The translations under genes were made by a program, and so were the position numbers. A stretch of 64,000 bases of DNA from Sipunculus nudus (taxonomy: Eukaryota > Annelida > Sipuncula > Golfingiida > Sipunculidae): the NCBI GenBank assembly GCA_026874595.1, contig CM049310.1, forward strand, positions 28,381,058 through 28,445,057, in the 5' to 3' direction. This document shows positions 16,536 to 51,200 of the stretch, piece after piece. Positions within the stretch are counted from its first letter, which is position 1. Each line of letters starts with the position of its first letter. The notes beneath the pieces are model-generated. The model searched no databases and was not told where the DNA came from. It saw only the letters and a program-made list of their open reading frames with translations.

Positions 16536-17436
16536 AACTACAATACGGGTAGTCGACAAGCGACTACGTGTATCCGCCGAAATCAGAATGGGACGGGTGA
16601 AGTGAGCCATGGATTGAGTGGCAAGGGGAAATAGAGTGATGTGTGTTGCATATTAGCATGGATGTCTGCAGCCGATATGTGTATGTAGGTTGCGCCACCT
16701 ACCACAAAATCCAGAAAGCTGTCCAGCTTGTATACATATGACACATTTTAGGCAGATAAGTCAAACCACTACTTGTATATGAGTGCTTTTATCCCACAGC
16801 AGACAACAGAAGGACGCTGTGCAAAAATGGCGGCAGCAGGCGCCACCAATCTTGTGTATGATTAAGAGCTATGTGAGATCTATTCACATGCAAAATTTCA
16901 GGGGGATATGTCAAACCAGTCCTGAGATATAAGCCTAAATGTCTGCAGCGTAATCATAAATGTAGGTGGCGCCACTGCCACAAAATCGAAAAAGCTATCA
17001 AAGATGTATAAACATGCAAAATTTTAGGCAGATAAGTCAAACCACTACTGAGATATGAGTAATTTTAGCCAATGGCAAACAAACAGACGTACGCTGTGCA
17101 CAAATCGTTGCAGAAGGCACGACCAGTTTTGCGTATGATAAAGAGCTATGTGAGATCTATACAAATACAAAATTTTGGCCCATTCGGTCAAACGGTTCCC
17201 CAGATATGAGCTTGGATGTCTGCAGTGTAAATGTAAATGTAAGTGGCGCCATCTGTCATAAAATCATGAAAGCTTTCCAGGATGTATACACATGCAACAT
17301 TTGAGGTGGATAAGTCCAATCAATGCAGAAATATGATGCTAGCTCCTGCCCTTTTTGAGATAGCTACGACGCACGACGGACGACGGAAGACGGACAACGC
17401 CACACCATTGCATAAGCTCACAGATTCGCTAAAAAT
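16536..17436 (+). mobile_element. HINE/pearl-like element, TACGGGTAGTC 5' end
   Basis: The left end AACTACAATACGGGTAGTC, with a GTAGTC...GACTAC hairpin, matches the element at 34447. The core repeats contain GTGGCGCC motifs, 'GGTCAAACGGTTCC' and 'GAGATATGAG'. The right end differs: an ACGACGGACGACGGA microsatellite, then ATTCGCTAAAAA, as at 18340. It may be a chimera or two abutting elements. Non-coding. Confidence 0.65.
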
Positions 17437-17689
17437 GCAAACCAAGTTTTTTCAAACAGTTAAAATATATATTTCCAATAGTTCTTATCTGGGCATTCTG
17501 CGTCTAGACGCTGTGTCTAGACGTATAAACACATTGTCTAGACACCAGACAGAGCCAGATCAGTTGCCATGGTGATGTCTTGACCCCACCTGGTTGTACT
17601 GGGTGACTTCTTGACTTGGCTGCTGAAACTCAGCATGTTGTCAAATCTGTTTTCAGACACAGAAAGCCTTTTTCAATTGACTACACTAC

Positions 17690-18340
17690 TTTTTTAAAGC
17701 TGCATTTACCCAATCTATTCTTATAAAACTGGCAGAACCCTACCATAGAAAAATTCTTGTAAAGTTTAAACCAATCAGCTTAACAGTTTCATCATAAAAC
17801 AGTGTATAAGCTAGAAGAGTCTAAAATTACATTTTGCTTGTAAAAAACAGATCAATGTAGGTGCCGCACGAATACCTCAATTTCGGATATGACATATGTA
17901 ACAAACATTGGCATAAAATTTGATGATGATAGCTCTAGCCATTTCCGTGACTGAAATTTTAGTGTGCTTTTTTTTTGACAGATGACTAAGTTCAACCTCC
18001 TGTAACTCGGCCAAAAATCTCCGAACTGGAACCATTCAAACAAACTTGAGAGAGATTGTTCCAGGGATCATTTCTGTGAAATATAGGACAATTTGGCTGG
18101 ACAGTTTCGGAGAAGAAGCATTAAAGATTTTTTAGCTTTTCCCTATAAAATCTAAGAAAATACAGTTAGAAAAAATAAACAAAATCCGGGTTGAGTTTTT
18201 CAGATGACTTATTATTTGCAAAAAATTGGTGATGCTAGCTCCTGCCGTTTTTGAGTTAGCTATGGTTAACGTACAGACGACGCACGACGCAACGACGGAC
18301 GACGCTGCACCATCGCATAAGCTTACTGGTTCGCTAAAAA
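17690..18340 (+). mobile_element. HINE-like element, right part
   Basis: Degenerate core sequence ends in an ACGACGCACGACGCAACG microsatellite, then GCATAAGCTTACTGGTTCGC and TAAAAA. The same right end occurs at 17340-17436. The left boundary is uncertain. Confidence 0.5.
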
Positions 18341-18814
18341 TCCTACAACAGTCCCAGTTCACAAGTGTATGTTGTCATCATGCATGATCGAATTAAAACG
18401 TGACAATCGTTTGGATAAAGTCTTGTATATATGACTGGTGTTTTCACATATAGCTTCATTTCTTCATTTTTACGAGTTTAATTGTATTTTGTGAGGGTTA
18501 CATTACAATTCATCCATAAACTCATTACCCTGGAATTGAATATGAAAGAAAAATTGCCTCAAATGCCAACGTTTCTCACTTATCATGCCAAATAATATAT
18601 TAAGAAAATTAACCAAAACAGACCTTCAAAACCATCACATACTTAATTTGTATAATATTATACAACACCATGGTGGCTAGAACAATAAATAGTCTTCTTG
18701 TTCCTGGTAATTCATAGACATGTTTCATATGGACAGTCCTACAACTGGTTTAAGTCAGTTGTGCATGACAGCATTATAATATGAAGCGTTTTGTAAGAAC
18801 CTAGATATGACAAG

Positions 18815-18985
18815 GACGTGGTGGCGAAATGGTGTAAGAAGCACTAGGTTTGTGACCGCAAGTTTGCGGGTTCACATCCCGTTCAGACCGCCTTCCGCAT
18901 TTATGGGAAATAATAACGTACAAAGCACGTTGAACAGACACGAAAAATAGCGTTTTCACTTTGAAATAAAATCGTACCTGCCAAA
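18815..18985 (+). mobile_element. tRNA-like SINE
   Basis: The A box TGGCGAAATGG (18822-18832) fits the polymerase III consensus. The B box GGTTCACATCC (18869-18879) differs at one position. The spacing and a short variable-arm-like stem (CCGCAAGTTTGCGG) resemble a class II (Ser/Leu) tRNA. It lacks a paired acceptor stem and is followed by an unrelated body ending AAATAAAA, so a SINE is more likely than a tRNA gene. Confidence 0.5.
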
Positions 18986-18989
18986 AATT

Positions 18990-20410
18990 GCCCTGAAACT
19001 GTTGGCTTAATTACTCCTGTACACAAGCGTTATAAAAGTGGACCATACAGGCGCGATCACTGCATGACGCCAACAGAGCGCGAACGCCACCTGCGTTGTC
19101 CGTGTTCCTTTCAGGCTTACAACCAGTGTTTTACAGTCGTGCACGTTCATGTACAGGCCACAACACTGTCAATCAGTAGATGCCATGACTAATTTTGCCA
19201 ATAAAAATGTAAGACATGTTCTCGTTGGCTGAAACATCGCGTGTGTTGCGATGGCTCAGGGACCCGATACACATGGTCACACTGTGTTGCGCGTGTCATT
19301 TCAGCTGAGGCCTCTGGACGTATCTCACAAATCTGTTGCGATAGACTCTGCAATGAATTTACATTCGAAGATTTCCTGAATATGTCCCTTTCAGATAACT
19401 TTACCACAAGGGTGCATGCACCCTCCCCACCAAGGATTTTGATTTGTAACTGGTCATGGACGGCAAGCAAAATATAGAATGTTTTACCTCCAAGTACCTT
19501 ATAGTGAGCCTGCGTGTTCTACAGATCCCTAGGGCCAGGGGTCTGCATAAAGATAGAAGAAGGACCAGGTCTGTTTGATGATTCATGAGACTAACATCGT
19601 CAGTGATGTCATACCATAAACCCTACATTTATGTGCTTGCAGAGAAGATTCAATAGGAAGAGATGCCTGACAAACTATAGTGGTCTTCTAGTGGTCACGA
19701 TATAAGGGGTCATACAAATTGCAGTGGCGGATCTGGGGGGGGGGGGGGTTGTTCGTTTTGTTTAAATGCACGTTTATATATCTAGCGGAAAGTTATATGC
19801 ACCTGAGTTTTGCAAGGGGCATTTTGCAACTATAGTCCGTTTCATCCCCTCATGTCCACCTGATTTTTGCTATGAACATTTTTAATAGTTTAATTTCAAG
19901 GGAAACAATTGTAGTGTAGAGGATTAAAGGACCTAATTTTCAAAAAGGTAAATAAATACCTACCTTACACCTTATATAAGAAACAGAATTATTTTAAAAT
20001 ATGAGAAATCAGTCTACATTTTACAACATATCAGACCCACTTATGGCGGTCAAGGTCATTGGTCACATGCAAAAACAGCCTCAACTGACAGCGTCTGATT
20101 GGATGATCTCATGTAAACCCTCTAAAAAAATATAACCAGCTCAAACAAAGATGGCTATAAATGGAGGGACACATCATATCTGCCAGATCATGGTGAAGAG
20201 ACTAAAATGTTGTGAAACAATAAACGGGAGATTTATTGTAAAATTCTTAATTGCCATATTAGGTTGTCACTTCCATTAGTTTTTTCTTTGAAATTATTGT
20301 AAACATTTTAAACTTTTAAGTAAATCATCTACAAAAAACAGGTGGACAGCAGTTAGTGAAACGGACTATAATGATCTTTCAGCCTCCGTTTCATATTTGT
20401 TTTCTGCATG
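18990..20410. other. Intergenic, no gene recognised
   Basis: No supported gene. Overlapping open frames of 60-93 codons at 19189-19586 share the same stretch on both strands and show no domain. At 19724 a single CAGTGGCGGATCTGG end followed by poly-G is a fragment of the CAG-GGCGGATCC family. Confidence 0.4.
19724..19750. mobile_element. Fragment of CAG-GGCGGATCC element
   Basis: GCAGTGGCGGATCTGG followed by a poly-G run. No matching right end was seen nearby. Confidence 0.4.
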
Positions 20411-20521
20411 TCAGTACCAGGGCTGGGTATCGGTCAGCCTATTCAGGTACAATACTTATTGCGATACACTTAAAGGGATATCCGATACATATTGACGATA
20501 CGCTTATATTTTTGTAAACAA

Positions 20522-23500
20522 ACTAGATATTTCTTGGTACCGCAGGTGCCATAGTATCCCCAGACAATTAACCCCCCCCCCCCCCAGCCTCGAACAATAG
20601 GATCCCATCTTGAATTCAGATGCAGAGACTGATACTTGGCAAGCCACCATGGTTTCTTATAAGTATGGGCATATCTAAGATAAAGGTCACTCTCATAGGA
20701 GAGGTCATGATCCAAATTGAAATACATCTCATTCCGTAACCCATGTCTATATAAATGATATTAAAGAAATCTGTCCATTAGTTTTCAAATTATCATGCTC
20801 ACAGTGCTGTGAAGTGGCAATGGGGGGGGGGGGGGTATTACAAGGTGCGAAAGCAAGAAAACGACTTGATAAGATGCATCTAACCTGTAAGTTTGGTGAC
20901 TGTAGTTATTGCCGTAATTTCATTTTAACATTATCGCTGCTGACCTGGAACAAATGTATCAAGGTCGTCCATGTTCAAATTTGACCTAGCCGTTGATAAG
21001 ATGCATCAAACTTGTGGGTTTGGTGACTGTACCTCCAATTTTTGCAAAGTTATTTCGTTTAAACATCATTTTAGCAAGAAAACAAATGATCCATGGGTTA
21101 TGACGCTCAGCTGACTGGGTAGAGATTTGCCAAAGGAAATTTTATCATCTGAATGGTAGTATATACCCATTCAACTGAAGCATCAAACAGATTAACCAAC
21201 AGGCGAAGATTGTGACTTTATTTATATATCTCAAAAATAGAGAAAAATGCATAAACTTTAAAAAAATACAGGTGGTTCCACCAGTCTGCAGAAACTAGAA
21301 AAAACACTTAAAGGTCAATATCCATGCAAAGAATCACGGTGATCTCTGCATTAGTTGTTCAGATACTTCAGCTTTTGTATCAAATTTTCAATTATTCTGA
21401 GGGATACTTCAGGGGGCCTATAGCTTGAAGGATATGTGTAGCAGAGACCTAATTTCAAGTTTCCATGGAGACTTTTCATGGGTCTCCCAGTATGTCAAGA
21501 ATGAAGATTCTAGGTCCAGTTGTTATGATTTGTGCCCTGTTAACAGAGGTTCATATCTTTAAAGGTCTCAAAAATAGAGAACACAATTCGTAAAAAAACC
21601 CGAAAAAATACAGGTGGTGCCACCAGTCTGCAGAAACTGATGAAACACTCCATGATCAATATCCATACAAACAATTATGGTGATCTCTGCATTAGTTGTT
21701 CAGATACTTCAGCTTTTGTATCAATTTTTCCATTATTCTGAGGGATACTTTGGAGTGCCATAGCTTGAAGAATATGGGTAACAGAGACCTAATTCCAGGT
21801 TTCCACAGACTCTTTTCATGGGCCTCCTTGCATGACAAGAATGAAGATTCTAGGTCCTGTTGTTACATTTTGTGCCACGTCAACAGATGACAGCATCCTT
21901 AAAGGTCTCAAAAATAGAGAAAAAAATTCATAAAAAACGAACAAATACAGGTGGTGCCACCAGTCTGCAGAAACTGATGAAACACTCCATAATCAATATC
22001 CATGCAAAGAATCATGGTGATCTCTGCATTAGTTGTTCAGATACTTCAGCTTTTGTAACAAATTGTCCATTATTCTGAGGGATACTTCAGGGGGCCTATA
22101 GCTTGAAGGATATGGGTAACAGAGACCTAATTTCTGGTTTCCATGTGGATTTTTTATGGGTCTCCCTGTGTATCAAGAATGAAGATTCTACGTCCAGTCG
22201 TTACGTTGTACCCTGTTGACAAATACCTACATCCTTAAAGGTCTAAAAAATAGAGAGAAAAAAATTTAAACTTTAAAAAAATACAGGTGGCACCACCAGT
22301 CTGCAGGAACTGATGGAACACCTCTTGATCAATATGTATGCCAAAAATCATGACCATCAGTGTTGTAGTTATTGAGATGTTGCAGTTTGTTTTTATCAAA
22401 TTTTCCATTATTTTGTGTGTGGGGGGGGGGGGGGGGTAATTGGGAGCCCCACAACTTAAAGGTCCAGTTGTTATGATTTGTTCCCTGTGACAGATGTTCA
22501 CATTTTTAAAGGTCTCAAAAATAGAGAAAACAATTCGTAAAAAATCGAAAAATACAGGTGGTGCCACCAGTCTGCAGACACTGATGAGACATCTCATGAT
22601 CAATATGTATGCAAAAAATAATGACCCTCAGTGATGTAGTTAATGAGATATTGAAGTTTTTGTATGAAATTTTTGACTATTCTCGGGGGTACTTTGGGGC
22701 TCCCATAGCTTGAAGGATATGGGTAAAAGAGACCTAATTTCTGGTTTCACAGGAGACTTTTCATAGGTCTCTCAGTGTGTCAAGAATTAAGATTCTAGGT
22801 CCAGTCTTTACGATTTGTGCCCTGTTAACAGATGTTCACATTTTTAAAGGTCTCAAAAATAGAGAGAAAAAAATCTTAAAAAATCGAAAAATACAGGTGG
22901 CGCCACCAGTCTGGAGGAACTGATGAAACCTCTCATGATCAATATGTATGCAAAAAATCATGACCATCAGTGATGTAGTTAATGAGATATTGAAGTTTTT
23001 GTATGAATTTTTTTAATATTCTGGGGGGTACTTTGGGGCCCCATAGCTCAAAGGATATGGGTAACAGAGACCTAATTTCTGGTTTTCAAGGAGATTTTTC
23101 ATGGACCTCTCAGAATGTAAAGTTACAAGATTCTAGGTCCACCAGTTACGATTTGTGCCTGGTTAAAGGACAGACGGACGACGGACAAAGAGTGATCGCT
23201 ATAGCTCAGATGACTTACAGTCAGCTTAGCTAAAAACATAAGGTGACGCCACCTGTCTTCTGCAGGAAACAATGCTATCAAAGATCTTATGTCAATTTGA
23301 TTTTTGGATCATTCCATGTATCCCTTACGGAGATATTAAAGATTTTGTGTGAATTTCACCAAATATGGGAATATTCATGGTCAAGGCCACTCTCATAGGA
23401 AAGGTCATGACCCTAATTTAAATAAACATCATACCATAACCCATATCTATGTATATGCATAATAAAAAAGAAAACTGTCCACTAGTTTTTGACTTATAAT

Positions 23501-23903
23501 GCTCACAGTACTGTCAAGTGGCAATTTTGGGGGTATTAAAAGGCACGAAAACAAGTTTAGAATAATAGATGGCGCCACCAGTTTCTGGAACATGACATCC
23601 CTATCCATGATCTTCGATCAACTTGATTTTGGGATCAATCCATGCAAGATTTCTTAAGATGTTCAAGAATTTGTGTGATTTTCCCCAAAATTGGACCTAT
23701 TCAAGGTCAAGGACACTCTCCTACTAAAAGTCATGACCTCATTTTAAATAGGCGTCATCCTGTCACCCATATCTATACATAAACCAAGTTTGGTAAAGAT
23801 CCGTGAAATATTTTTTGAGTTATCGCGCCAACAAGATTTATATGTGGCGGCGGGACCGTCATGAAAACATAGTATCCCCCGACTTTGTCTGGGGATACAA
23901 TAA
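20522..23903 (+). mobile_element. HINE-like element F (host of a nested element)
   Basis: It starts AACTAGATATTTCTTGG with a TGGTACC-GCA-GGTGCCA hairpin, then CATAGTATCCCCAGAC. Core repeats (20660-20830, 23380-23540, 23700-23800) share 'ACTCTCATAGGA', 'GGTCATGA' and 'AACCCATATCTAT'. The 3' end is the hairpin GTATCCCC...GGGGATAC followed by AATAAAA at about 23870-23903. A second element interrupts it at 21081-23235. Non-coding. Confidence 0.65.
21081..23235 (+). mobile_element. HINE/pearl-like element A, six tandem core units
   Basis: It begins AACAAATGATCCATGGGTTA and has GCTCAGCTGACT close by. Six core units of about 340 bp (starts near 21266, 21610, 21951, 22284, 22556, 22895) each open with CAGGTGG-GCCACCAGTCTGCAG. 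Then come ACGGACGACGGAC and the 3' hairpin GCTCAGATGACT/AGTCAGCTTAGC ending CTAAAAA. The 22284 unit is shortened and carries a poly-G run. The architecture matches the pearl/DINE-1 group of Helentron-associated elements known from molluscs and insects. Confidence 0.75.
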
Positions 23904-23910
23904 AAAAAAC

Positions 23911-23911
<1 letters not shown>

Positions 23912-23969
<58 letters not shown>
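23912..23969. repeat. (AT)n microsatellite
   Basis: Pure AT dinucleotide run directly after the 3' hairpin of element F. Confidence 0.98.
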
Positions 23970-23972
<3 letters not shown>

Positions 23973-25160
23973 ACCTTTTTCATCACACTAACGACATCTG
24001 TTTAATTTAGTATTAAATATTGGGTGTTAAAGTTTTGATCTCAATTTTAAGTCCTTCTTCAACCCCCTTCATCAATATGTTTGCATATTTTTGGGAAGGT
24101 TATATTTTATTTGTCATGCAATAACGCAGTTTCGTATGTTACTGAGAATGTAAATTCCCTAAGTCACATTTCTCCTCGCAGACTATTATTGCATTTCCCC
24201 CCCAAGGCTTCGACTGCATGTTTCTCCTGTTGTCGAACATGTAGTTCACAATATGCAAGTATAAATGGACCTAGAGAAATTGCCTCGCTTCTATTTAGAA
24301 CAGGGATAAAATAATGGATTATAAAATAAAATAAATGCCCTGCTGAGAACACAGAATGGAAAAATACGCAATAAATATTTCAATACTAACAAAGACAGTT
24401 CGCACTATCATCGCTCACACGCGCGGGCTTGTCATGGAAGCTCCAACAAGTGTACATACATCCCTCATCAAAAGTCGATCATACGACTATAGATGTGATC
24501 TTGTAAGTCTTATAAAGCCAACTCGAGAAAAAAAAGTAGCTTATGCTTAATCAATTGTTCATATTATAATTTAGGCTAATGTAGTATCTATATTTGATAG
24601 AAGTAATTGTTTCATCGATACGACGATACAACATGCAAAGCCTATAGATAACCGTATCGAGGTGGCGTATCAATATGTATCGATATATCGGTATATTGAT
24701 ACAGCCCAAGTCAACACTGACGGGTATACCGTGTTAACGAACAGCTTATAGATAAAAAAAACTCCTATACATCTTTCAAAGAGCCGTTGTAAGAATTTTT
24801 CTGAACAGAATTTACCGATGGTTCATTAATATGTACACAGAGTAAGCCAAAAATCACAATTTCTACAGAGACGATATTTGAGTAACTGACTTTGACATCC
24901 TTATGGGTGTACAAAATTGAGATATTTTTTTCTTCCTGGCTCTGGCTGAAAGACCATAGCTTTGGGACGTTCAGGTTTACATATGAAATGATGGGTCTTA
25001 TTCAGATCATGCACATATGTTCCCGCTCACCCGAAGAACCAAGCTAATAGTAATAATGGAATTTATACATTTATTGGACTGGGCTTCAGGTGGCACAGAA
25101 AGACATCCAAAGTATTTAACTAGTTTTGTATTTGCTTTAATCGGAGGAGAATGTACCTGC
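23970..25160. other. Intergenic, no gene recognised
   Basis: Short open frames only. Sequence at 24840-24870 (CAGAGTAAGCC...ATCACAATTTCTA) resembles 9878-9910, a diverged dispersed repeat. Confidence 0.35.
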
Positions 25161-25168
25161 TCAGGCGC

Positions 25169-25336
25169 GGATCCAGGATTTTTTGCAGGGAGGGGTCAAC
25201 GGGTGTCATGCATAAAAATTATGTAAATAAAAGTCGTTGGTTGAGAGCGGGGGGCAACCCCCCCCCCCCCCCCCATGCATAAGATATGTGTTTTATGTTT
25301 TAAAAAGGTCTTGGTTGAGAGCTGGATCCGCGCCTG
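25169..25336. mobile_element. TIR element with poly-C (CAG-GGCGGATCC family)
   Basis: CAGGCGCGGATCCAG at the left and its exact inverse CTGGATCCGCGCCTG at the right form 15-bp perfect terminal inverted repeats. The complementarity continues outward (CCTGCTC / GAGCAGG). Inside is a GGGGGGCAA stretch next to a long poly-C run. About 168 bp, non-coding. Confidence 0.7.
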
Positions 25337-28578: not shown

Positions 28579-28579
28579 G

Positions 28580-29006
28580 AACAAGAAAATTCATGAAATT
28601 CATGTCCCCCACTTCCGCCTCTCGTCATATTAGCTTCCTGTGATCTTCATGCTTGCCTTCTCAATATGTTTATTTTCCTCTGAAGATGTCTCCACACATC
28701 ATAGTGCCTGTGTTTTAGTTTTCATTGTCCCCTGAAGATGTCTCCACGTCAAAATTTTTGTTGTGAATTGGGAACAAAAGAATGAATTTTTGTTTGTTTT
28801 GGAGCTGGTGATAATAAATTTGCAGACAGACACTTCAAAACCAATCAGAACATAGGTATGCATGAGAGCAATCAGTGAGCCAAATTTGAATGAAATCAGA
28901 TAACATTAAGGAAAGTTATCGAACAGCAATGAAACCCAGACCGATGGACAGACAGACAGACAAACACAAATCAATGTCCCCCTTTCCGCAAAAGCGGGGG
29001 AAAATA
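28580..29006 (+). mobile_element. HINE-like element J, copy 1
   Basis: It begins AACAAGAAAATTCATGAAAT and CATGTCCCCCACTTCCGCC. It has repeated GAAGATGTCTCCAC, 'CAGACAGACACT' and 'ACAAACACAAATCAATG', and ends in a CCCCCTTTCCGC/GCGGGGG hairpin followed by AAAA. Copies lie at 32926, 55469 and 57748. Confidence 0.7.
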
Positions 29007-30500: not shown

Positions 30501-30508
30501 TTGAATTA

Positions 30509-31839: not shown

Positions 31840-31955
31840 TGTCACATCTCGTATTTATTCATGAGTGCCACATAACCCATGCTCATTCAGTAGTGTTACA
31901 CAGCTCATGTTTATTCATGTCTCAAATCTCATGTATATTCATAAGTGTAATAATG
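31840..31955. repeat. Degenerate ~28-bp tandem repeat
   Basis: About four imperfect units of the form CACATCTCGTATTTATTCAT then GAGTG. Confidence 0.5.
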
Positions 31956-32925: not shown

Positions 32926-33366
32926 AACAAGCAAATTTGTGGAATTTAAGTCCCCCGCTTCTGCCTATTGTTGTCATTCATGCTTGCCTTCTCATTTCTC
33001 AATCACTGTTTTAGTTTTTATTTTGGCCTGAAGATGCCTGCACATGTCATAGTGGATGTGTTTTAGTTTTCATGGCCCCCTGAAGATGTCTCCACGTCAT
33101 AATTTTTTGTGTGGATACGGACTAATATTTTATTTTTTGTTTGGGACCTGGTGAGAATAAATTTTCAGACAGACACTCCAAAACCAATCCCAATCAAGGT
33201 ATACATGAGAGCAATCAGTGACCCAAGTTTGAATGAAATTGGATAATATTTAGGAAAAGTATCTGCATGAAATGAAAATGTGACTGACGGAGTGACAGAT
33301 GGACAGACAGACGGACAGACAGTAATATCTAAATCAATGTCCCCCTTCTGAGGGAGCAGGGACAAT
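32926..33366 (+). mobile_element. HINE-like element J, copy 2
   Basis: It begins AAACAAGCAAATTTGTGG, then GTCCCCCGCTTCTGCC. It has GAAGATGTCTCCACGTCAT, a GACGGACAGACAG stretch and a degraded CCCCCTTCTGAGGGAGCAGG end. Confidence 0.65.
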
Positions 33367-33474
33367 TAGTGAAAGTCATCTAATGATGAGAGTTGTCTGA
33401 CCAAATAAACCTAGGTAGCTCTTATACTTACATAATCATTTGGCCAGTGATAAATTTATTTGACTTATCATGTA

Positions 33475-34425
33475 ACTAGAATATCAGCAGAAGCTGACAA
33501 AAGCACTCAGCCAAAAAGAACAGTGTTTATAGGTGGTAACAGTAACAAGTACAAAATATTTGTTCTCTCATGAATGTATATCTGTACATGTCTCAGTTAT
33601 AAATTTAAACTGGAGAGGTAAGTAGTAAATAATGTACCATGTTTCAGCACAATCCACCAAATGCTTTAAGAAGATATCCTGGCCAAAGTTGAAAAATCTG
33701 TTAAAAAATCATTAAAAATCAGGAACTGTAGATGGTGCCCCCAAACTTGTGCGGAATACAGACCATCAGTCACAATGAACATAGAAAGTTTTGTGAAAAT
33801 CCACCCAATGGTTCCTGAGAAATAAGCTTCTAAGTGTTTTTCTATAATCAGCTCTGAAACGTAGAAAAACAGGTCAAGGTCACCCATCTTCGAACTTGAC
33901 CAAGATTTTGTCTATATAAATCTTCACCTAAGAAATAAAATTCCTAAGGTGAATCCTTTTAAAGATATCCTGCTCATAAGGCCAAAGTTGAAAAATCTGA
34001 TAAAAATTCATTATAAATAAGAAATTGTAGGTGGCACCGCCAAACTTGTGAAGCAGGTACAGACCATCAGTCCCAATGATCATAGTAAGTTTTGTGAAAG
34101 TCCACCCAATGGTTCCTGAGTAATAAGCTTTTAAGTGTTTTTCTATAATCAGCTCTGTAACGTAGAAAAATAGGTCAAGGTCACCCATCTTCGAACTTGA
34201 CCGAGAATTAGTCTATATACATCTTCACCTAAGAAATAAAATTCCTACAGTGAATCCTTTAAAAGATATCCTGCTCACAAGGCCAAAGTTGAAAAATCCA
34301 AAAAAATTCATTATAAATAAGAAACTGTAGGTGGTGCCATTGTTAATGGACGCCGGGGGGACGGACGGACAGCTTGGGTGATGACAATAGCCCATCAGCT
34401 TAAGGGCTGAGGGCTAAAAACTGTT
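33475..34425 (+). mobile_element. HINE-like element G, copy 1
   Basis: It starts AACTAGAATATCAGCAGAAG. It has two or three core units with GTAGGTGG-GCC and ATGGTTCCTGAGAAATAAGC and 'GGTCAAGGTCACCCATCTTC'. It then has ACGGACGGACAG and the 3' hairpin AGCCCATCAGCTTAAGGGCT followed by GAGGGCTAAAAA. Copy 2 lies at 48062. Confidence 0.7.
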
Positions 34426-34446
34426 GCAGTCTTACTTTAAATAATT

Positions 34447-35903
34447 AACTAGAATACGGGTAGTCAACAAGCGACTACGTGTATCCGCCTAAATCAGAGT
34501 GGAACGGGTGAAGTGAGGCATGGATTGAGTGGCAAGGGGAAATAGAGTGTTGCATATTAGCATGGATATCTGCAGCCAAATTGTGTATGTAGGGTGCCCC
34601 CCCTACCACAAAATCCAGAAAGCCGTCCAAGTTGTATACATATGCAAAATTTAAGGCAGATAAGTCAAACCACTACATGTATATGAGTGATTTTAGCCAG
34701 TGGCAGACAAACAGATGGACGCTGAGCAAAAATGGTTGCAGGTGACACCACCAGTTTTGCATATGATAAAGAGCTATGTGAGTACTATACACATGCAAAA
34801 CTTTGGCCCAATCGGACAAATGGTTCCCAAGATATGAGCTTGGATGTCTGCTGCATAAACTAGAATGCAGGTGGCGCCACCTGTCATAAAATCAAGAGAG
34901 CTGTAGGGGATGTATAAACCTGCAAAATTTTAGGCAGATATGTCAAACCACTGCCGAGATATGAGTGATTTTATCCCATGGCAGACAAACAGACAGGAAC
35001 TGTGCAAAAATGGCTGCAGGTGGCGCCACCAGTTTTGCGTATGATGAAGAGCTATGTGAGATCTATACACTACAAAATTTTGGCCCAATCGGTCCAACGG
35101 TTTCCGAGATATGAGCTTGGATGTCTGCAGCGTAAACGTGAATGTAGGTGGCGCCACCTGTCATAAAATCAGAAAAGCTATCCAGGATGTATAAGAATGC
35201 CGAATTTCAGGTGAATTAGTCAAGTCACTGCAGAGATATGAGTGATTTTAACCCAAGGCAGACGAACAGATGGACACTATGCAAACATGGTTGCAGGTGG
35301 CGCCACCATTTTTTGTGTATGTTATAAAGCTCTCCAAGGGCTACATTTGTGCAAAAAAAATTTCCTGATCGGTCGAACGGTTCCCGAGATATGAGCTTGG
35401 ATGTCTGAAGCGTAAACGTGAATGTAGGTGGCGCCACCTGTCATAAAATCAGAAAAGCTATCCAGGATGTTTACCACTGCCGAATTTCAGGAGAATTAGT
35501 CTAGTCACTGCAGAGATATGAGTGATTTTAACCCAAAGCAGACGAACAGATGGACACTGTGCAAACATGGTTGCAGGTGGCGCCACCATTTTTGGTGTAT
35601 GTTATTAAGCTCTCCAAGGGCTACATTTGTGCAAAAAAATTTTCCTGATCGGTCAAACGGTTCCCGAGATATGTGGGTTTATGTGTGGAAACAGACGCAC
35701 AACCGGATGCAGAGCGCAGAGGAAAGGTCAGAGGTCAAAACGAAATCGGGGCGCAGCAGTTCACATGTGACCCAAAAATAATCCCGGGTTTCGTAAAATT
35801 CCGCCCAGCGGTTACGGAGGAGTTCTCCGGACACCTACGCGGCCGCGGCGGCGGCGTGCAGCTGAAAACATAGTATCCGCAAAACTCTGTTTTGGAGGAT
35901 ACA
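34447..35903 (+). mobile_element. HINE/pearl-like element E with palindromic core
   Basis: It starts AACTAGAATACGGGTAGTCA with a GTAGTC/GACTAC hairpin and GTATCCGCC. The core carries six perfect GGTGGCGCCACC palindromes at 34870, 35019, 35147, 35296, 35427 and 35576. Their spacing alternates between about 149 and 130 bp. Conserved 'CGGTTCCCGAGATATGAGC' recurs. The 3' hairpin GTATCCGCAAAAC/GTTTTGGAGGATAC is followed by AATT. It lies about 130 bp beyond the SMG7 stop codon. Confidence 0.75.
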
Positions 35904-36031
35904 ATTATATCATCTATGATACCACATGAACCTCACTTCCCATTGCAGATTATATGAGAATAATTACTGGATGGAGTTGCTGGACAAGCAGGTGGATGCA
36001 CCCCACTAATGACAGATTATAATTACTGTAT

Positions 36032-39200: not shown

Positions 39201-42200
39201 AAATGTCGGCAGCTGTTTGTCCACCTGTCGTGGCGGCAGGTGGAGCTGTGACTGCTGCTGGAGCTCGGCCAGCAGCTGATTGGTTCCTCCCTGCTCCTGT
39301 AGCTGCTGCAACAGCTCACTGGTCAGCATGGCACCAGGGGGCGCTCTTGTGAAATCAGGCGTTGGGCCTCTGTAAAACATGGAGTCAGTCTGCGGTTTGT
39401 GCTGATCTATCATGGGAGGCTGCATCTGCGTCTGGCCTGGGCTGTTCTTGCGTCCACCCATCATAGGTCTGCACTGTTGCTGATACTGGGCCATTGAGAG
39501 GTTCTGAGCAGGGGGATAGTCCTGGCCAATATGTCCTGTCATATGGGACTGCATGCCTGGTTTATTAATTGGTTGGAAGTCCTGACTGCCCTGTCCTGGG
39601 ATGATACCCGATCCTGCCTGTACCTGGGGATCACGGTTCTGTGAAATGCCAGCCAGCGGAATTCCGGGAACCACCATTGGTCTCTGTGGACCAAATATTG
39701 GCACCATGGGCACACCCACCCCTGCCGGAACCGGATGTCGGTGGGAAGGGGGCATCACTGGTGATTCCCTGCTGTTACCACCAGGTGGAGCTGTGCTGAT
39801 GAGCTGATCTGTGTTAACTGGTCCTAGGGGGGGTGGAGGTCTCTGAATTGGAACTGGCCCAATATTTGGTGGAAGCCCTTGGAATGGCAGATGAGTCATC
39901 TCAGCTGGTATGGGGCTGTCCTGGCTAATTTTATCAGGTAGAGCGCCCCTCCCTGAGGAAGCAGGAGGGGCGGCACTGCTGCTTGGGATATCTTGGGTTG
40001 GAGCAGTCTGGGGTTTAAATGAGGACTGTGTATCTGATGGGTAGGTGGGATGTTTGGGTGCGGGGAGAGGAGGATACTCCTGGGGGTCTGTGGGAGGTGG
40101 CTGGGTCTTTGTCTTCAGGTTGGTAGGAGTCTCCTTCCTTTTGATGCGGATCACTTGTTCTGGTTTTCCTTTGCCTGAGCCCTGAAAGGCATTAAGATAT
40201 AATTTACTCATAAATAGCTTTAAACATGGTTCTTTATTGAATGAGAAATAATCATATTCCACTTTTGCTGATCATGTTAACCATAAGATTTAAAAGATTA
40301 TTAACTAATAATAACATTTTTGCCTACAAAGGCAAAAATGGAAAACTGCATGATTAATTATAGTTATAATTAACATCAAACTGACTGTAGTGAAATTTGA
40401 CGTAATTGTATCTTTCTATTTTCTGCAACACTGACATCAAGTGCAATAAAAAAATTTACGTAATGAACGATGACATTCTAGAGGAACAATCTACTGTACT
40501 TACAAGCAGTGTTTCTCCACACTGGACTCATCAGATTTAACCAAGCCAAAGTGTGAAGATAAGAGAATTTAAATGACCAATAAATGTCCATAAGTTTCAG
40601 GGACATTTTGGATTGACATTTCAGGAAAACAAGACCATATTTTTTAAACCCCAACAAAAATCCCTCATTTCTTTATCTCTTTTGTGTCTGGAAAAAAATC
40701 AGCATTATTTAGAGTGTGTTGGTGAAGTCACTCCCATCTCTCCTTTTGGAATTTTTTGAACTGGTTAGGGGCAGAACATTGGGAAAAGGACACGTTGGGG
40801 GGGGGGGGGGGGGTAGCAGAAGAGGGGATTTTATAATCATAAAACTGACCATGTAACACTCCCCTTCCTCTTGTTCCTCATGCTTGCAACCTCTGAGTAT
40901 GTTCAGAGTTTGCACTTACATCACCAAGTGGTACTTAAAAACAAAGTGTTGTCTTACCTTATGGTCTGCCTGTGGCCTCTTTTCTGGGGTGCCTGGACCA
41001 GGAGGGGTAGTTCCAGCATCAGATTTTTTGGCCTTGTTGTTGCTATTCTGCATGATGGCCTGAAATGGAAGCTTGCTGTTTAATGAGACCTGTGTACATA
41101 ACATTATGTGTAGTCAGCAAAGACTTTGGCATATCAGCTGGTCGCCCAGGCTGAGAATGGAAAGAGGAAATGGCAGATATGTGTGGAATGTCACACCATC
41201 TGACTGGCTACGGTACAGGAGGCTGTGACAGAAGCTGAACCGTGTAGCATATCAGAAACTGAGACTCAAGATGTGCATGTTAGGTGTGACTTCTTGGCAA
41301 TCTATAAAGACTAATGTCAGTGGTTAAAGAAAAGCCTAAGAATCAGCCACCCTGATAATGTATGAAAACATGAGCCATGATTCCTGCTCCAATGTCTTCT
41401 TAGCCAAGGCAAGCTTAATATCACCTGAAACCCTGTGGTTAGCTTCATATACGTGGGGTTAAAATTTCGCTATTTTCACTCTTTCAGTAATTGCAAGGGT
41501 TCCATTTTCACAGTATCACAATACAAAAGACCTATACACAGAGTATATCCATTATCATGTAAATTAATTAAAACAAATATTATGCGCACAAAATCTTAAT
41601 AACAAACAAGGGACCCATGGGTTATGGTGCTCAGCTGTTATATATGATAAAAAATATGATTTAGAAATGAGGCACATGCTTGTTTTGTGTGGAAATAAAT
41701 ATATAAGTTGTATTATGAGTTGTGGGTGTTTAGCTTATGTATGATTTGGATAGTATCCTTGGAGACAGGGAAGAGGATTGATTTCATTTATTTTATTAAC
41801 AAATGGAGTGCTATTGTCACACAGATTTTGACTTGGCCATACAACTTATAAGCAGAACATATAATATAAGAGTTTAACTATTTATTTAAAATAATTACAA
41901 ATTGTCCCAAATATAATTTTTATAAAAAATAATAAGAATCGTATGATTTTTTACAATAAAATACAACTGAAATGATTATTATAATAATAATAACAAAGAA
42001 TATATTCATGAATGCATTCATGAATACATTTTGAAAGTATTTGCACTGGTACTCATATACTTTCATTTTTACCTGAATTCCCTTTCTTATGCAAGAAATT
42101 TTATTATGGAGTACATATTCATATTCGTATTCAAATACATTTGCAAAGTATTCGCACCATGTCTGGTATTTATTCAGTTTTCACCAAACAATGATGTTGA

Positions 42201-45200
42201 GAATCCAGAATATACAAAATTCACACACAGAAATAATAATCATAAGTACTTGGTTTTATGGCTTTTAAGTTTTATTCATATTAAAAAAAAATAAATGTAA
42301 TAAATTCATTTTGGACTAATTTCACATCAATGTACACACTAGACACAGCAGGAATCTAGATTAAAACTATCAACTGCATTTTTGTCTATCATTAATTTCC
42401 TTCATATGATCCCTAATGATTAGTAATGAATAATATGATTTATTTTTTTATCATTAAAATTGAACTGAAAAATACCATAGGTGACTGCATGGTGTTATTT
42501 GGAATACATGACATTCTTTCAATCAATACAAGATTCTTATATCATCAGTAACTGCAAGTTAATTTCCTGTTATTATCAACTAACAAATTCCTTTTCCATT
42601 TTTCTTTAATTTGTTATTAAAAACCAATAAAAATTTATTAATTTATTGTTATGTTGTTAGTTAAAACTACTAGATGAGTTGGGTTGGACACCTGGATCAA
42701 CTGTTGCAGGACATAAGCTGCCAGGCTGCCCCAGTGTATGCCTCGCGTCAAGCGTGCATAATTTGATGAAAGGTCAACAAGGTCAACAAACAGGTGACTC
42801 AAGAGGGGCTGGGGAGAGCTAAGGTCTGACATGTTCTCATAAAAACATTTATAAAAGCTACAATTTTTGGCCAATTTCTTTCAGCTTTCTAAACTAAAAA
42901 GCTGAAATCCTTACGTGTGCATGATATGAAAATTATATCAACAGTTCTCACAGGAAACAAACGTGCCATGGTCAAATTTTGGCAAAATTTAAGGTACTAA
43001 TTTTATATATATACTTATAACTAATTAAATTTGAAAAATTCAGAACTAATTTTGGGTATTCAATTGAATCTTGAAAAAATAATGTTACATCCCTGACAAA
43101 AAACTCTAGCTTTAGCCACCTCTTGTTAAGGGAGTAAATATATTTCTTGATTTTTAACAAAGTGCATTATGTTTGGGCCCATTACTTAAAACAATTGAGC
43201 AATACTGACATCATTTCTGGCATGTGCATAGAGAATGTATAGAAAAATATGTATATTATATATGATTAAAGTCAAATCAGTGGTTTTGATATTAGGCAGT
43301 CTTGAAGTGTAACAATGGGTTTTTAATGGAAAAATGAAAGTTTTTCATTAATACCTCGAAGGTATTAAGTCCTAGTGACCAAATTCTTGGCATGAATTTT
43401 GGATTCCTAGGTCTTACGGTTTCAAAACATGCCACATCTACGGACGGACAGACAGACGGACAACGGACCACGACTATAGCTCAGATGACTTATAGTCAGC
43501 TGAGCTAAAAATATTGTTTAATAAAGGCCGACAATTGGAAAGATCTAATAGCATTTTAAAAATCAACTTTAGCTTTCAACAAACATGATCAATTTTTAAT
43601 AATAATGTTAACCTTTCAATTTTTAATTTTGCCTTCAACAATAGGACCTCTTGTTCACAAAGGTTTTATTTTCGCAATAATTCCCCTTTTTTTGGAACCC
43701 TCACTAACAAAAAGGTATATATTTAGCCCTACAAGTATAAGGGTAGATAACTACACTGCTCTCTTTGATGCAACAAAGTGCATCGCTCACTATCATTCTG
43801 GCAGTCAACCAGAGCATGTTCATATCAAAACAAAGAAGCATTATAAAAATAACAACATAAAATATACATAAAGATTACCTGTATGGCTACATTCTGTCTC
43901 TGTGACCTTCCTGTGAACCCCATGTCATTCTCATTCCCTACAAACATACAAAAGTGATCATAGAACACACAACACTATTGCAAAAAGCTATTACCTGTAA
44001 ATACTGCAAGCAATATCCTTCAGGGCAGCTTTAGATGGGGGCAATCCTAAAATCATGTTTCCAATGAAATTCTGCCTAGATCAATTTTTGAGTGAAATTA
44101 GAAGTTTCTAGCCATTAGAGGTAAGTTTGGTCCACTGCTTACAGAAAGCATGCTGCAAAGTTAAGTTGCCATTTTACATCCAGATAACTTTCATTTGGCT
44201 GCGCTGACAATCTTACCGACAATCTAATCCACAGCCTGGAGAAACTGGCTATTGCAGGATATGAATAAGATTTATAACTATGTAGTTATTGTAGAGTGTT
44301 GCTTATTGAATCCTGTAAAGCACACCCAGTCTGAAACACCCACTCACCTACGAGCACCTTGTATTGTGCAGTTGATGCTGTGAACTGGATCCTTCCGCAG
44401 TTGAGTCTCTCATAGTTCATCAGGTTCAGGCTGCAAAATACTAGATATTAACAGTTGTTCTCTGGGCTTCTGTTGCTAATTTTTAACCATGCACAAAACA
44501 AATCGAAGTTACTATTTTAAATTGTATCTGTGTGTGTTTCCAAGAGGTATCTGTTTCAGAAATTACAACATCTGTGTGCTTGCTGTAACACTGGAAACTT
44601 CTGCCAGTTCACACATGTTACGCTCTTTACACAGAGCTTTACCTATAGGGCTACTACCTATATTGTAAGGCGCTGTTTGTTATGACCTCGTATCCTAAAT
44701 TGCAACACCAGAGGGGAGCACTGTATTTTTGTCCAATCAGATGAGACCTTGTGCTGGAAGACAAAGCCAAGCGAGGAATACACGGAGCCAATCATATTCA
44801 TTTCTTTTTGAGTGACAGCTCATCGCCCCGGTAACCATCTGAACAGGCCACAGGCTCAGAGAGAATTGCCCCTGACGTGGTTTGCTTAGGGCCTTGGGCA
44901 CATAGGATGCCCAGTCGGTGAGCTGTAATTCAAACGAAACGTAACAACAAAGGCTGCGTGCACACCTCGCTGGCTGGTTTCAGTTCTGCAGACAACAGAT
45001 ACATGGCTATGCTAACACAGTCATAATGTCATAATCGAATCAGTCGATGATGCGAGAATGCAGAGGGAGCAATTGCTTGTCACATCATACGCACTTTATT
45101 TCAGTGGACAACGAACCACCATCTGGTGTCTAAATATATCATAAACGGTCAAAGCTGGCAGCGTGAGAATCAGTCGCTTCTTTAGAAGCGCAAGATTTCC

Positions 45201-48200
45201 GCTGCCTCGGGAGCGTACACACATGCATGCACGTATGGGTTTAAGCAAGTATTAATGTTGAGCCCTGCACATTTATGTAGAGCTTTTTGGCTGGCTTTGG
45301 ACTGCTAAGTCTTGTGAGATGACCTAAACAACAATCTTCTGAAGGTTAAAAAACAAAAAAAAAAAAACAATTAATATGGGCATACAGGGCTTTCAGGAAC
45401 ACCACTGTGATGCTCATTATCTTATTTGCACCCTTGGCTCTGGGGCTAAGGCTTCTAGTTGGATGCACAGGTTTTTTGACTGTAGGACTGAAAGATAAAA
45501 TTGGGTATCTGTCAAAGGAACTGACCAGTGCCAACTTCCTTATAAAACTGTATGTGATTTTAGTATAAACTGAGAATTTACTGTATATTTTATAACTGCA
45601 CAAATCACCCATATGCCAATCCCAGTACTTATTCTGGAACCATTACAAAGGTACTGTCATGCAACGTTCACCACACCTGCTAACATGTAATTCAAATTTA
45701 AAAAAAGTAAATAAATAAACTATTTAATATTACCAGGACAAAAACTGACAGCAGCCTTTGGGACACTCCAAAATCCCATAGGACTCTCCAAAACTGTGAC
45801 CTCAGCATCCAGGATTTTCCATTTTTTTTGCCTATTGAAAGCATCGAGTACTGAAAGCTACTTACCTTGGATATTTGTCAGCCACCCATATCCCAAGCTG
45901 CACCAGTCGATGGCAGCGTATAGCTGTCTCTTGTTCATGTGACAGCATGTCTACACAGTGTTTAGTGAAGTCATACTCACTGGAAAAATCAAAAGTAAAC
46001 TATGTCATACATGAGCATATATATAACTAATATGGGAAGTGCTTTCAACCTGGCTCACAAAGACTGAGCTGCAAACACACAACAAGAAATGAACCATTAA
46101 GGTAACAGAGCTTACATAAAACAAAAATATTACCCATGTGCTGTAATTTTGAATTTGTAAAGATATATAGAAATCTTTTGAGGTGAAAAAGTATAAAATT
46201 TGCCCCAAAAAAAGTATGAACAAGTGACCCATGGGTCATGAGGCTCAGCTGACTGAGAAGAGATTCGCAAAAGGAAATTTTATCATCTGAATGGTAGTAT
46301 ATACCCATTCAACTGAAGCATCAAACAGATTAACCAACAGGCCAAGATTGTGTCTGCATTTAAATATATTTCAAAAATAGAGAAAAAATGCGTAAACTTA
46401 AAAAAAATACAGGTGGCTCCACCAGTCTGCAGTAACTAATAAAAACACTTAATGGTCAATATACAAGCAAAGAATCATAGTGATCTCTGCATTAGTTGTT
46501 CAGATACTTCAGCTTTTGTATCAAATTTTTCATTATTCTGAGGGGTACTTCGGAGTCCTATAGCTTGAAGGATATGGGAAACAGAGACCTAATTTCAGGT
46601 TTCCACAGACACTTTTCATGGGCCTCCTTGCATGACAAGAATGTAGATTCTAGGTCCAGTTGTTACTATTTGTATCCTGTTGACAGATAACCACATCTTA
46701 AAAGGTCTCAAAATAGAGAAAAAAATTCGTAAAAATTTGAAAAAAAATAGAGGTGGCGCACCCAGTCTGCAGAAACTGATGGAACACCTCATGATCAATA
46801 TGTATGCGAAAAATCATGACCATCAGTGTTGTAGTTATTGAGATACTGCAGTTTTTGTATCAAATTTTTCATTATTCTGGGGGGTATTTTGGAGCCATAC
46901 AGCTTACAGGATATGGGTAACAAAGACCTAATTTCAGGTTTCCATGGAGACTTTTCATGGGTCTCCCTGTGTGTCAAGAATGAAGATTCTAGGTCCAGTT
47001 ATTATGATTTGTTCCCTGTTAACAGATGTTCATATCTTTAAAGGTCTCAAAAATAGAGAAAAAAAATTGTAAAAAAACCTGAACAAATACAGGTGGTGCC
47101 ACCAGTCTGCAGAAACTGATGAAACACTCCATGATCAATATCCATGCAAACAATTATGGTGATCTCTGCATTAGTTGTTCAGATACTTCAGCTTTTGTAT
47201 CAAATTTTCCATTATTTTGAGCTGTATTTTGGAGTGCCATAGCTCAAAGGATATGGGTAACAGAGACCTAATTTCAGGTTTCCATGGAGACTTTTCATAG
47301 GTCTCTCACTGTGTCAAGAATGAAGATTCCAGGTCCAGTCTTTACGATTTGTGCCCTGTTAACAGATGTTCACATTTTTAAAGGTCTGAAAAATACAGAA
47401 AACAATTCGTAAAGAATCGAAAAACACAGGTGGCGCCACCAGTCTGCAGAAACTGAAGAAACATCTCATGATCAATATGTATGCCTAAAATCATGACCAT
47501 CAGTGATGTAATTAATGAGATATTGAAGTTTTTGTATAAAATTTTTGACTATTCTGGGGGGTAATTTGAGGCTCCATAGCTCGAAGGATATGGGTAACAG
47601 AGACCTCATTTCTGGTTTCCAAGGAGATTTTTCATGGACCTCTCAGAATGTCAAGTTACAAGTTTCTAGGTCCAGCGGTTACGATTTGTGCCAGGTTAAC
47701 GGACGGACGGACGGATGGACAGACAGACGGTCGACGGACAAAGGGTGATTGCTATAGCTCAGCTGACTTACAGTCAGCTGAGCTAAAAAGTATCAATTAA
47801 GGGGGAATGTGCAGTTATCTAATGTAACTGAACCAGAAGCTTGTAAACATGCCCATCATGTCCAGCTTTGCATATTATAGGTATATTATCATAATAGGTA
47901 TATTATCTTTACTCTATCATGACAACGCACAACCTTGCTGAAAAAGATGCAAACTCCCTGCAAAAACACTGACAGTGTTGTAACAAGTATGTGTGTGGAA
48001 AGCTTATGATCAACAATTTCAAGAGGAACACAGAGACTGAAAAGAATCTATATAAACGAGATAACTAGAATATCAGCAGAAACTGACAAAAGGCCTCAGC
48101 TATAAGAACAGTGTTTATGGGTGGTAATAGTAACAAGTATGAAATATATGCTCTCGTATAGATGTAAATCTGTACATATGTCTCTTGTTCAAGTTATAAA

Positions 48201-51200
48201 TTTGAACTGGAGAGGTATATAGTAACTTTGCTAGTCTGGTAAATGAAGTGATATTGACCTGTAAGATGATAAACACTCTGTAGGGGATTACCTGTGAATT
48301 GAGATGTCTGCAGCAACACTAGAGGACACAAACTTAACGAAGACACCAATAGAAACAAAGTACCTATGTTTAATTACTTTTTACAGGAATGGTGCTCAGA
48401 AGCGAAAAATAGGTCATAAAGTCATAAAAATTAAGACACTGCATGTGGCACAACAAACATGTTGCAGCAATTACAGATCATCAAGGCAAGTAATGACACC
48501 ATATTTCAGAATGATGTGTTAAGTAGTTCCTGAGAAATAAGCTCCTAATGTTTTGCTATAATTAACTCTGTGACCTTGAAAAGTATATCAAGGTCACCCA
48601 TCTTCAAACTTGACTGAGATTTAGTTGATATGCAGCTGCACTGAAGAAATGAAGTTCCTGTGTTGAATTCTTTTTGAGATATCCTGTTCACAAGGCCAAA
48701 ATTAAAAAAGCGGACAAAAATCCTTTAAAAATCAGAATATGTAGGTGGTGCCACTAAACGCAAGCAGCAGTTACAGATCATCAGGGCCAATGAACGTGGC
48801 ATGTTTTATAACTATCCATTCAGTGGTTCCTGAGAAATAAGCTTCTAAGTTTCTTGTTCTATAATTAGCTCCATAACATTGAAAAATAAGTAAAGGTCAC
48901 CCATCTTCGAACTTGACCGAGATTTTGTTATTACTGAAGAAATACAATTCCCAGGTGAATCCTTTTTGAGATATCCTGCAAACTTTGTAAAATTTAACAG
49001 ATGCCGGACGTACGGCTTGGGTGACGACAACATCCCATCAGCCAGAGGGCAAAAAGGATGAAAAATAGTGTTTCCAGAAGAAAATACACTTAAAATTTTA
49101 ATTTAGCAAATATAAAGAGAGATTTACCAATGCACAGAGTTACAAGTATTACCTGTAGCATTTGTGCAATGGTAGGAAGCACTGGAGGTCATGGTCTTCT
49201 GGTAGAGGATACACTTCACCTGAAAATAAGAAATAAACTGTAGTAAACACATCTGTATTAAAGGTAAAATACAAAACTATCATACATTTCAATGTATATT
49301 TTAGAAAATGGTCATTTTACATTTCAAATATAATTTGTTTAAAAAATTTAAGTTTTCATCAGAATACAAAATTCTTTAGACAGCAAAAAAATTCTGTTTC
49401 TACATGACATGAGCATATAAAAAATAAATAGAAACAGTTTAATTCATTCTGATCATGCTGTGATATTTAATACAGATTTATCAATGTGACTAAAACTTTG
49501 TAATTCTTAAATGAATTTGAGTGCAAAATACCAACATAAAGTAACAACATTTTTGCATCATTCAGACAATTCCCTGACTTACATTTGTCTGGTGTTGGCT
49601 GATCCCCTCTGCTGGAGTTGGTGGTGGTCTGGATATTTGACAGCAGCTTGCTCAAATTGAGCCAAAGTCTTCAAATGAAAAATAAGCAATCATAGAATGA
49701 TACAAAGCATGAACAAAAAATAAATAATCATAAAACGATACAGAGCTGAACATCGTGACCATCTGTACAATTATGCACTTACAATTAGTTCCATTTAAAA
49801 ATTATCATTCCTGTTTGATTCGATACTACATGCTGCTACCTTTACTTATTGTAAAATATAGCACCCTGACACTTGTTAAAATATAAAGCAAGCTTAAAAA
49901 GTATTTATTTAAACAGTGTTATGATTAATATGTTCAGCACCACCAAAACACTGTATAGGTAGGCACTATATTAAGTGTATCAGTTATTATTAAGTCATTA
50001 TTAAAATACAAGAAAAGCTGTTTTCCAAATTCACTTGCTCTCTCTTGTACATAGCAGAACACCGGGAACAATACTTATTTATCTTGACACCTTCCTTTAA
50101 CAGAAATGATGTCATTAATAACAAACATTATTCTAAACCTAATAAATAATTTCCTGTAAATACGCAGCAGTTTTATTTTACTCTTCTGACCTTAGGGGAA
50201 AACCCATACAAAATTTAACCCACACAAAAATAACACGGTAAAAAAGACTAAATCTGTTAGGGTTTTAAAGTATTCTATTAAAAACAAGGAAATCACATCC
50301 ACAATATTTGGTAGTTCTGCATTTACTCCACAGAACAAAGCGATACTCACCCTGAATTTTTAAAGCATGAGTGATTGAGGAGTTTGTCGTCAGACTTTAT
50401 CCAGTCCAGGATGACCTTGAGAGCAGGCAGGGTGTGGTAGTCACGAGCTTTAGACTCCTGTTTAGGGGTGTAGTGCAGTAGGGTGTCAAACAGGGATACT
50501 GCAAACGTAAAACATACACAACTACAGTGGTAAGATCTGTCAGAATTCTTCAATACACTGACATACTCATCAATTATCACCTATGAATATAGTTTAATGT
50601 AACAATATGTCAATGTACATTATATCTCTTTGTAAGTGGAAGAACAGGGATTCATTTAAATGCACAAATCTAAGGTATTTGGCTGTGTTTCTTACTCATT
50701 AGGTCTCAGTTGACATTATCCATGAATAGTTTTATTAAATGAAAATTAGAAACCAACTTGTTACTGTTGTTTCCTTAGAATGCTATTGAGCATCATCTAG
50801 TTTGCATGATGAACCAATAATGGGGGAGGGGTGTCTGTAAATTTTAATGATATACCATGAAAGCCAATGAAAGACAACTAAAAGATAATGCAGGAAAGTC
50901 AGCTGGTGTCAAAGGATCCATGATGATGAGATCAATAATTAATATGATGTATGAGTTTTCATTCTGAAAGGAAAACGTCATATTTTTCTTGTAAAAAGGA
51001 AATGGAATTAATGGAAATTAATCTGGAGAAAATCAGATGTGCTAGGTGAGACATTAATAAGATTAAAGTTATTAATTAAAGCAGTCTTACACCTGTTGAT
51101 ATTTTAGGTGATACATCTGAAATATCATGATATAGGATAAGTTGGGGTTTTTTTTGTAAAACATCAAATGTCTACTTCTACTTTCACTGGATATCTTAAT

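Follow-up and report, generated by a model that had tools for sequence, protein, structure and literature searches.

Unrelated HINE families share one insertion direction within chromosomal domains of Sipunculus nudus

DINE-1/HINE elements and Helentrons carry subTIRs, a 5' inverted repeat (IR), a 3' palindrome and a microsatellite; they insert at TT, their autonomous form encodes Rep/Helicase/Endonuclease, and near-identical subTIRs have already been reported in families less than 70% identical (Thomas et al. 2014, PMC4067079). The repeats described here are alike in these terminal features, including the near-identical subTIRs of diverged families, but differ in sequence, and the accessible part of that work holds no orientation analysis. 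Cg_HINE of Crassostrea gigas is likewise similar in its 5' subTIR, complementary IR, GTCY-type microsatellite, satellite-like tandem repeats, 3' subTIR, 3' palindrome and T-rich sites, but is described as integrated in both orientations, with no orientation domains mentioned in the accessible text (PMC7492417). Helraiser and Helibat Helitrons are also rolling-circle elements, and their CTAG-3' or CTTG-3' ends next to T resemble the CTAG/CTTG-TT found here; they differ in having a 5'-TC start, an AT target and no subTIRs, and the accessible text includes no orientation analysis (PMC4778049, PMC5876387). As sources of single-stranded DNA, the Helraiser authors named lagging-strand replication and transcription-linked supercoiling, leaving the choice open (PMC4778049).

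The bacterial IS200/IS605 elements (IS608, ISDra2), covered together with Tn7 in a review (PMC5371812), share the HUH chemistry, and their orientation follows replication since the target is the lagging-strand template; in the present case we infer fork direction. Unlike the present elements, they are without a helicase and move by peel-and-paste in bacteria, whereas the host studied here is an animal with many origins (PMC5371812). No report of Helitron or Helentron orientation domains was recognised in the open-access literature among the matches listed, and the accessible text of PMC4595182, PMC5738225, PMC4683698 and PMC5148889 contains nothing on them. The orientation domains described below appear to be new, and appear strong at the start of contig C1 and in the window but weaker in the C1 interior.

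Terminal anatomy and polarity of the repeats

The window is a stretch of 64,000 bp (C5:28,381,058-28,445,057) from an assembly of 1.43 Gb with 17 contigs longer than 60 Mb. Its repeats are several HINE families, the non-autonomous partners of Helentrons, and their standard strand is the window minus strand (Table 1). Read on that strand, the order of parts is a T-rich 5' end, a 5' subTIR with its inverted repeat (forming a hairpin), a GTCC-type microsatellite adjoining the 5' end, tandem repeats of 277-340 bp (arrayed in A and E), a 3' subTIR, a further palindrome, and the terminus CT(A/T)GTT. This last end is common to all families whose 3' end could be read in the window (A/B/C, E, F, J and K), with the single variants TTTGTT (A, 21081) and GTAGTT (E1, 16536). 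The elements start with TT and finish with GTT, and their flanks are varied. The composite E-family element reflects either swapped ends or truncation of a neighbour.

Table 1 Repeats and other features of the window
Feature	Position	Strand	Landmarks
E-family body and 3' end fused to X-type 5' end	16536-17435	-	X-type 5' end 17403-17435; no hairpin
X-type 5' end	18308-18340	-	no hairpin; 3' end not identified
Repeat stretch of unknown kind	18912-19244		direction against domain rule; possible counter-example
HINE family F	20521-23900	-	5' end 23868-23900; 3' terminus CTAGTT at 20521; interrupted by nested element A, same direction
HINE family A (element A)	21081-23236	-	5' subTIR/IR hairpin 23199-23236; ~340-bp tandem repeats; 3' subTIR at 21105; 3' palindrome
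HINE family J, copy 1	28580-29004	-	
HINE family J, three further copies	~32926-33362, 55469-55810, 57748-58200	-	same strand as copy 1
HINE family K	33474-34420	-	5' hairpin 34385-34420; 3' palindrome TCAGC...GCTGA; terminus CTAGTT
HINE family E (E2)	34447-35904	-	5' hairpin 35869-35904; ~280-bp tandem repeats 34681-35673; 3' palindrome GTAGTC...GACTAC; terminus CTAGTT
HINE with family-A ends (element C)	41605-43511	-	5' hairpin 43474-43511; 3' end 41605
HINE family A (element B)	46219-47789	-	5' hairpin 47752-47789; ~340-bp tandem repeats 46374-47700; 3' subTIR at 46243; palindrome TGACCCATGGGTCA 46225-46238; terminus CTTGTT
Degenerate K-family copy	48062-49065	-	5' end failed scan; left out of counts
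Long LINE	10406-15233	+	zinc-knuckle ORF (323 aa), then 1,283-aa ORF with endonuclease, reverse transcriptase and zf-RVT
Two short TIR-like elements	25160-25330, ~59780-59982		GGATCC-containing ends; served as sparse controls
Tandem arrays	4291-5314, 63462-63998		43/171-bp units; ~44/136-bp units
Open frame of 513 aa	38733-40271	-	no Pfam match at E 0.01

The original prediction described a 5' subterminal motif recurring as the left arm of a 3' hairpin, with six right ends finishing in GCTAAAAA. The named motifs and all six ends were found where it placed them, with the polarity inverted: a further palindrome lies outside its "5' motif" (in element B, outside the 3' subTIR) and an ACGG microsatellite lies beside its hairpin, which is the published HINE layout in reverse (PMC4067079, PMC7492417). 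What was taken for a 3' hairpin consists of the 5' subTIR and its inverted repeat, and the supposed 5' motif is the 3' subTIR; the terminal rule is itself the known subTIR/IR architecture read backwards. The Helentron-type assignment is supported by this anatomy, and a true Helentron is also encoded in the genome.

Of the GCTAAAAA ends at 17436, 18340, 23235, 34425, 43510 and 47788, the first two (family X) are without a hairpin (z 0.04). The J hairpin is weak (z -1.5), and E and F, which in standard orientation start with TTGTATCC, have no GCTAAAAA end. A rule that every right end is a hairpin plus GCTAAAAA was rejected on these grounds. Assignment to the canonical Helitrons (Helitron1; 5'-TC start, CTRR-3' end, AT target) was also rejected, the 5' ends being TTTTTAGC or TTGTATCC and the 3' ends CTAG or CTTG followed by TT.

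Folded as single-stranded DNA, the 5' hairpin gave strong z-scores in A (-5.8), E (-8.0), F (-5.5) and K (-6.0), equalled by none of 200 shuffles in each family. The 3' palindrome folded beyond shuffles in E, F and K (z -3.3 to -3.6); in A and J the palindromes are short, with z about -0.9. When the inner motif of each of A, E, F, K and J was matched with the hairpins of these five families, the true pairing alone out of 120 permutations reached the observed sum, in support of the expectation that motif and hairpin arm change together across families. Single families were uneven: of 2000 motif-segment shuffles, none matched the observed score in A or F, 14 did in J, 48 in K and 126 in E, so that E taken by itself does not exceed chance. 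In a known arrangement, the 5' subTIR has two possible partners: pairing with the adjoining inverted repeat forms the hairpin, and pairing with the 3' subTIR draws the two ends together; this alternative pairing may work as a switch.

Insertion direction within and between domains

Unrelated HINE families are inserted in one direction within chromosomal domains and flip between domains; pair statistics put domain size at about 100-200 kb, and the first domain of C1 exceeds 1 Mb. A scan for six families placed 12 of 12 HINE 5' ends in the window on the minus strand, and all HINE matches within the window were same-strand, including 28/28 of those at least 60 bp long and at least 3 kb apart. Two regions of C1 were set beside it: R1 (90-170 kb; 80 kb, a minus domain) and R2 (3.205-3.265 Mb; 60 kb, a plus domain). 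The 5'-end insertions were minus in R1 (25/25) and plus in R2 (8/8), and a reversed-pattern control gave 0 matches. Two A5 plus matches (R1:39331 and window:47751) were dropped before counting, each lying 1 bp off a better minus match of the same palindromic hairpin.

BLAST matches of at least 60 bp, which are not independent insertions, were same-strand within R1 (403/403) and within R2 (592/592) and opposite between the two (396/396); R1 and the window shared 127 same-strand and 3 opposite matches, and R2 and the window 1 same-strand and 66 opposite. Four matches ran against the domain rule, one being the TIR element at window 25167 and three involving the stretch at window 18912-19244. This repeat, which was excluded from the HINE library, is shared with R1 and R2 in a direction opposite to the window HINEs and may be a real exception to the domain rule.

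Genome-wide, plus and minus copies were balanced (A 8218/8453, E/F 4724/4714, K 568/575, X 1024/1011, J 141/144). The A-type 5' end had 16,671 exact copies, its reversed-pattern control 0. Dense copy lists cover C1; for other chromosomes the sample consists of the window (on C5) and end pieces. The first 100 A copies listed are all from C1 and fall into long runs of one strand, the first run comprising 47 minus copies, and the first 100 listed of 9,438 E/F copies have domain boundaries as for A. Among listed copies, A and E/F were on the same strand in 11/11 pairs closer than 5 kb, 40/41 at 5-20 kb, 66/73 at 20-50 kb, 91/107 at 50-100 kb, 179/236 at 100-200 kb and 300/534 at 200-500 kb. When one of the two lists was shifted circularly, 0 of 5000 shifts reached the observed 40/43; with the first 1.15 Mb removed the observed value was 26/29. 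The nearest listed element within 100 kb was on the same strand for 22/25 E and 18/18 F copies (against A; E and F distinguished by visual inspection of their hairpin sequences) and for 10/11 K and 17/20 X copies (against A/E/F), 67/74 in total. Below 1.16 Mb on C1, all 70 listed copies, from five families, are minus.

Agreement was weaker among listed copies of the C1 interior (beyond 10.3 Mb), where 28/37 pairs at 2-50 kb (p = 0.0026, the pairs not being independent) and 21/34 at 50-100 kb were same-strand. Listed X and K copies agreed in 3/6 pairs at 5-20 kb. J is sparse outside the window, with 5/6 J-J pairs at 5-100 kb and 3/4 J-K pairs below 50 kb on the same strand.

These counts bear on the reading that nothing exists past the known HINE end structure and that orientation is chance. 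The motif-hairpin match within families, in a layout already published, fits it; the circular shifts contradict it, as do the end counts of the window, R1 and R2, the uniform start of C1 and the A versus E/F pairs at 5-20 kb, and it can be regarded as scarcely credible. The original prediction suggested that one replication machinery may mobilise several families; the joint orientation of these families lends independent, if indirect, support to a shared insertion process.

The outer flanks of the 45 insertions in the window, R1 and R2 (a count from which a mismatch rule removes R1:39331 and window:47751) were non-HINE in 16 and HINE in 29, and all 16 and all 29 follow their domain. One initial direction could also spread by local copying, through tandem or segmental duplication or through nesting in the T-rich strand of older HINEs. 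The 29 HINE flanks are in keeping with this, the element strand of HINE DNA is T-rich, and a short F array with ~2.7-kb spacing lies at C1:1.407-1.419 Mb. Against it stand the 16 insertions with a non-HINE flank, the agreement of listed A and E/F copies at 20-100 kb (157/180), and the constancy of direction family by family in R1, R2 and the window; we consider local copying quite unlikely as the cause of the domains.

Other repeat classes served as controls. Two TIR-type patterns, assigned to this class by eye from their inverted ends, had 642 and 223 genome matches, of which 100 each were listed, a number that allows sparse comparisons. Relative to the nearest listed HINE within 100 kb, 7/18 listed TIR elements were on the same strand (M1 5/6, M2 2/12), and listed TIR elements within 200 kb of each other agreed in 7/13 cases. 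HINE agreement (67/74) differed from the 7/18 at p = 1e-5; the interior HINE pairs (49/71), a fairer comparison, gave p = 0.028 against 7/18 and p = 0.34 against 7/13. Control patterns for LINEs and SINEs had 2 and 12 matches, too few for comparison. In HINE-masked DNA, the share of T runs (at least 2) on the element strand was 0.53 in R1, 0.54 in R2 and 0.53 in the window, and the highest well-filled class, runs of at least 8 in the window, had 21/33 on that strand. Strand asymmetry of T runs was rejected as sole cause, such near-even runs being too little to account for 45/45 insertions.

Replication forks as a probable source of the domains

We infer that the orientation domains are due to insertion at replication forks, so that the strand of an element would be a record of fork direction; a probability of roughly 0.65 is given to this reading. 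Insertion would capture single-stranded target DNA at the fork, the likeliest target strand being the lagging-strand template, as for bacterial IS200/IS605, and element strand would then record the prevailing germline fork direction at the insertion site. The abrupt flips, and domains common to unrelated rolling-circle families, would be reminiscent of replicons. A fuller version is on balance favoured as well: Helentrons would insert into the lagging-strand template in one set direction with respect to the fork; the HINE copies, tens of thousands of them, would form an evolutionarily averaged map of germline forks in which runs correspond to replicon arms and flips to initiation or termination zones; and the 5' subTIR, IR and 3' subTIR would act as a single-strand switch on that template.

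Chromosome ends offer a proxy. Because forks should move mostly outward near the ends, an element strand equal to the lagging-strand template predicts minus elements at left ends and plus elements at right ends. Fifty two-kb end pieces were sampled, and 49 remained once a piece of the small contig C18 had been set aside; of these, which are apart from the left end of C1 as the discovery case, 12 were informative and 37 were not, two pieces with 47 and 52 bp of matches (L031 and L056) being excluded from the count. Outward forks with the lagging-template rule fit 10 of the 12 informative pieces, which are not independent, 16 pieces having been placed beside already informative ends: C4 left 2/2, C3 right 5/5, C1 right 1/1, C12 right 1/2 and C13 right 1/2, the C12 and C13 ends being mixed. 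At least some of the uninformative pieces are satellite arrays. Related tandem arrays, probably a subtelomeric satellite, were seen in L046, L048, L055, L070 and L073 near the right ends of C7, C9, C16 and C13.

Base skew after repeat masking is a second proxy. The element strand was T-rich in 3/3 regions and G-rich in 2/3, the window disagreeing. In human DNA, T-richness and G-richness have been reported for the leading strand.

Transcription might instead expose the single strand, through R-loops or negative supercoiling behind the polymerase, with elements following the local direction of transcription; transcription-linked supercoiling is the alternative source of single-stranded DNA named by the Helraiser authors (PMC4778049). 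A drop in agreement over ~100-200 kb and the mixed interior domains would suit such an origin. One domain, however, exceeds 1 Mb with all 70 listed copies one way, more than the length of typical animal genes, and transcription is judged unlikely to be the cause. Among 10 ORFs scanned for Pfam domains, transposon domains alone were matched.

Selection could remove one orientation after random insertion, for example in piRNA clusters or against antisense insertion in genes, and single-strand piRNA clusters holding co-oriented elements are known in Drosophila. Two findings speak against selection and leave it very unlikely: each C1 stretch that was examined showed domains, as did the C5 window, and orientation was alike among A copies whose 5' end carries 0 to 5 mismatches. 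The like orientation of these 0-5-mismatch copies also suggests that insertion direction has been stable over the age of family A.

As a point against insertion at forks, Helraiser circles had to be double-stranded for integration, so a single-stranded donor is not the sole route (PMC5876387). If the domains do follow forks, sequence alone would settle the single-stranded DNA source of Helitron-class HUH enzymes. In HINE-rich genomes (molluscs, insects, perhaps Drosophila with its DINE-1), the direction of germline replication would be preserved as a fossil record for species in which replication is difficult to measure, and the bacterial rule for single-strand transposons would be extended to eukaryotes.

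Autonomous Helentrons and a palindrome within the tandem repeats

A PF14214 profile matched 143 places in the genome (150 of 195 candidates scored). One locus on C11 (L057) has a single ORF of 2,235 aa with predicted Helitron_like_N, OTU, PIF1 helicase and C-terminal endonuclease domains, in what is, by predicted domain order, the Helentron arrangement. A Rep-helicase Helentron with the same ends as the repeats had been proposed as something to search for. An encoded Helentron was found in L057; this one element, examined at length among the 143 Rep matches, gave no match to the HINE library, and its ends, sought by eye and by motif, were not found. Two further Helentron copies, on C7 and C11 (L003 and L004), are 99.7% identical over 3.6 kb, which suggests recent transposition.

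The palindrome GGTGGCGCCACC, allowing at most 1 mismatch, occurs 45 times in the window, R1 (L009-L016) and R2 (L017-L022) together, all 45 occurrences lying in HINE-masked DNA (106,134 of 204,000 bp), an enrichment that is partly circular as the mask was derived from repeats of the same regions. It sits in monomers of A, E and F that are otherwise dissimilar.
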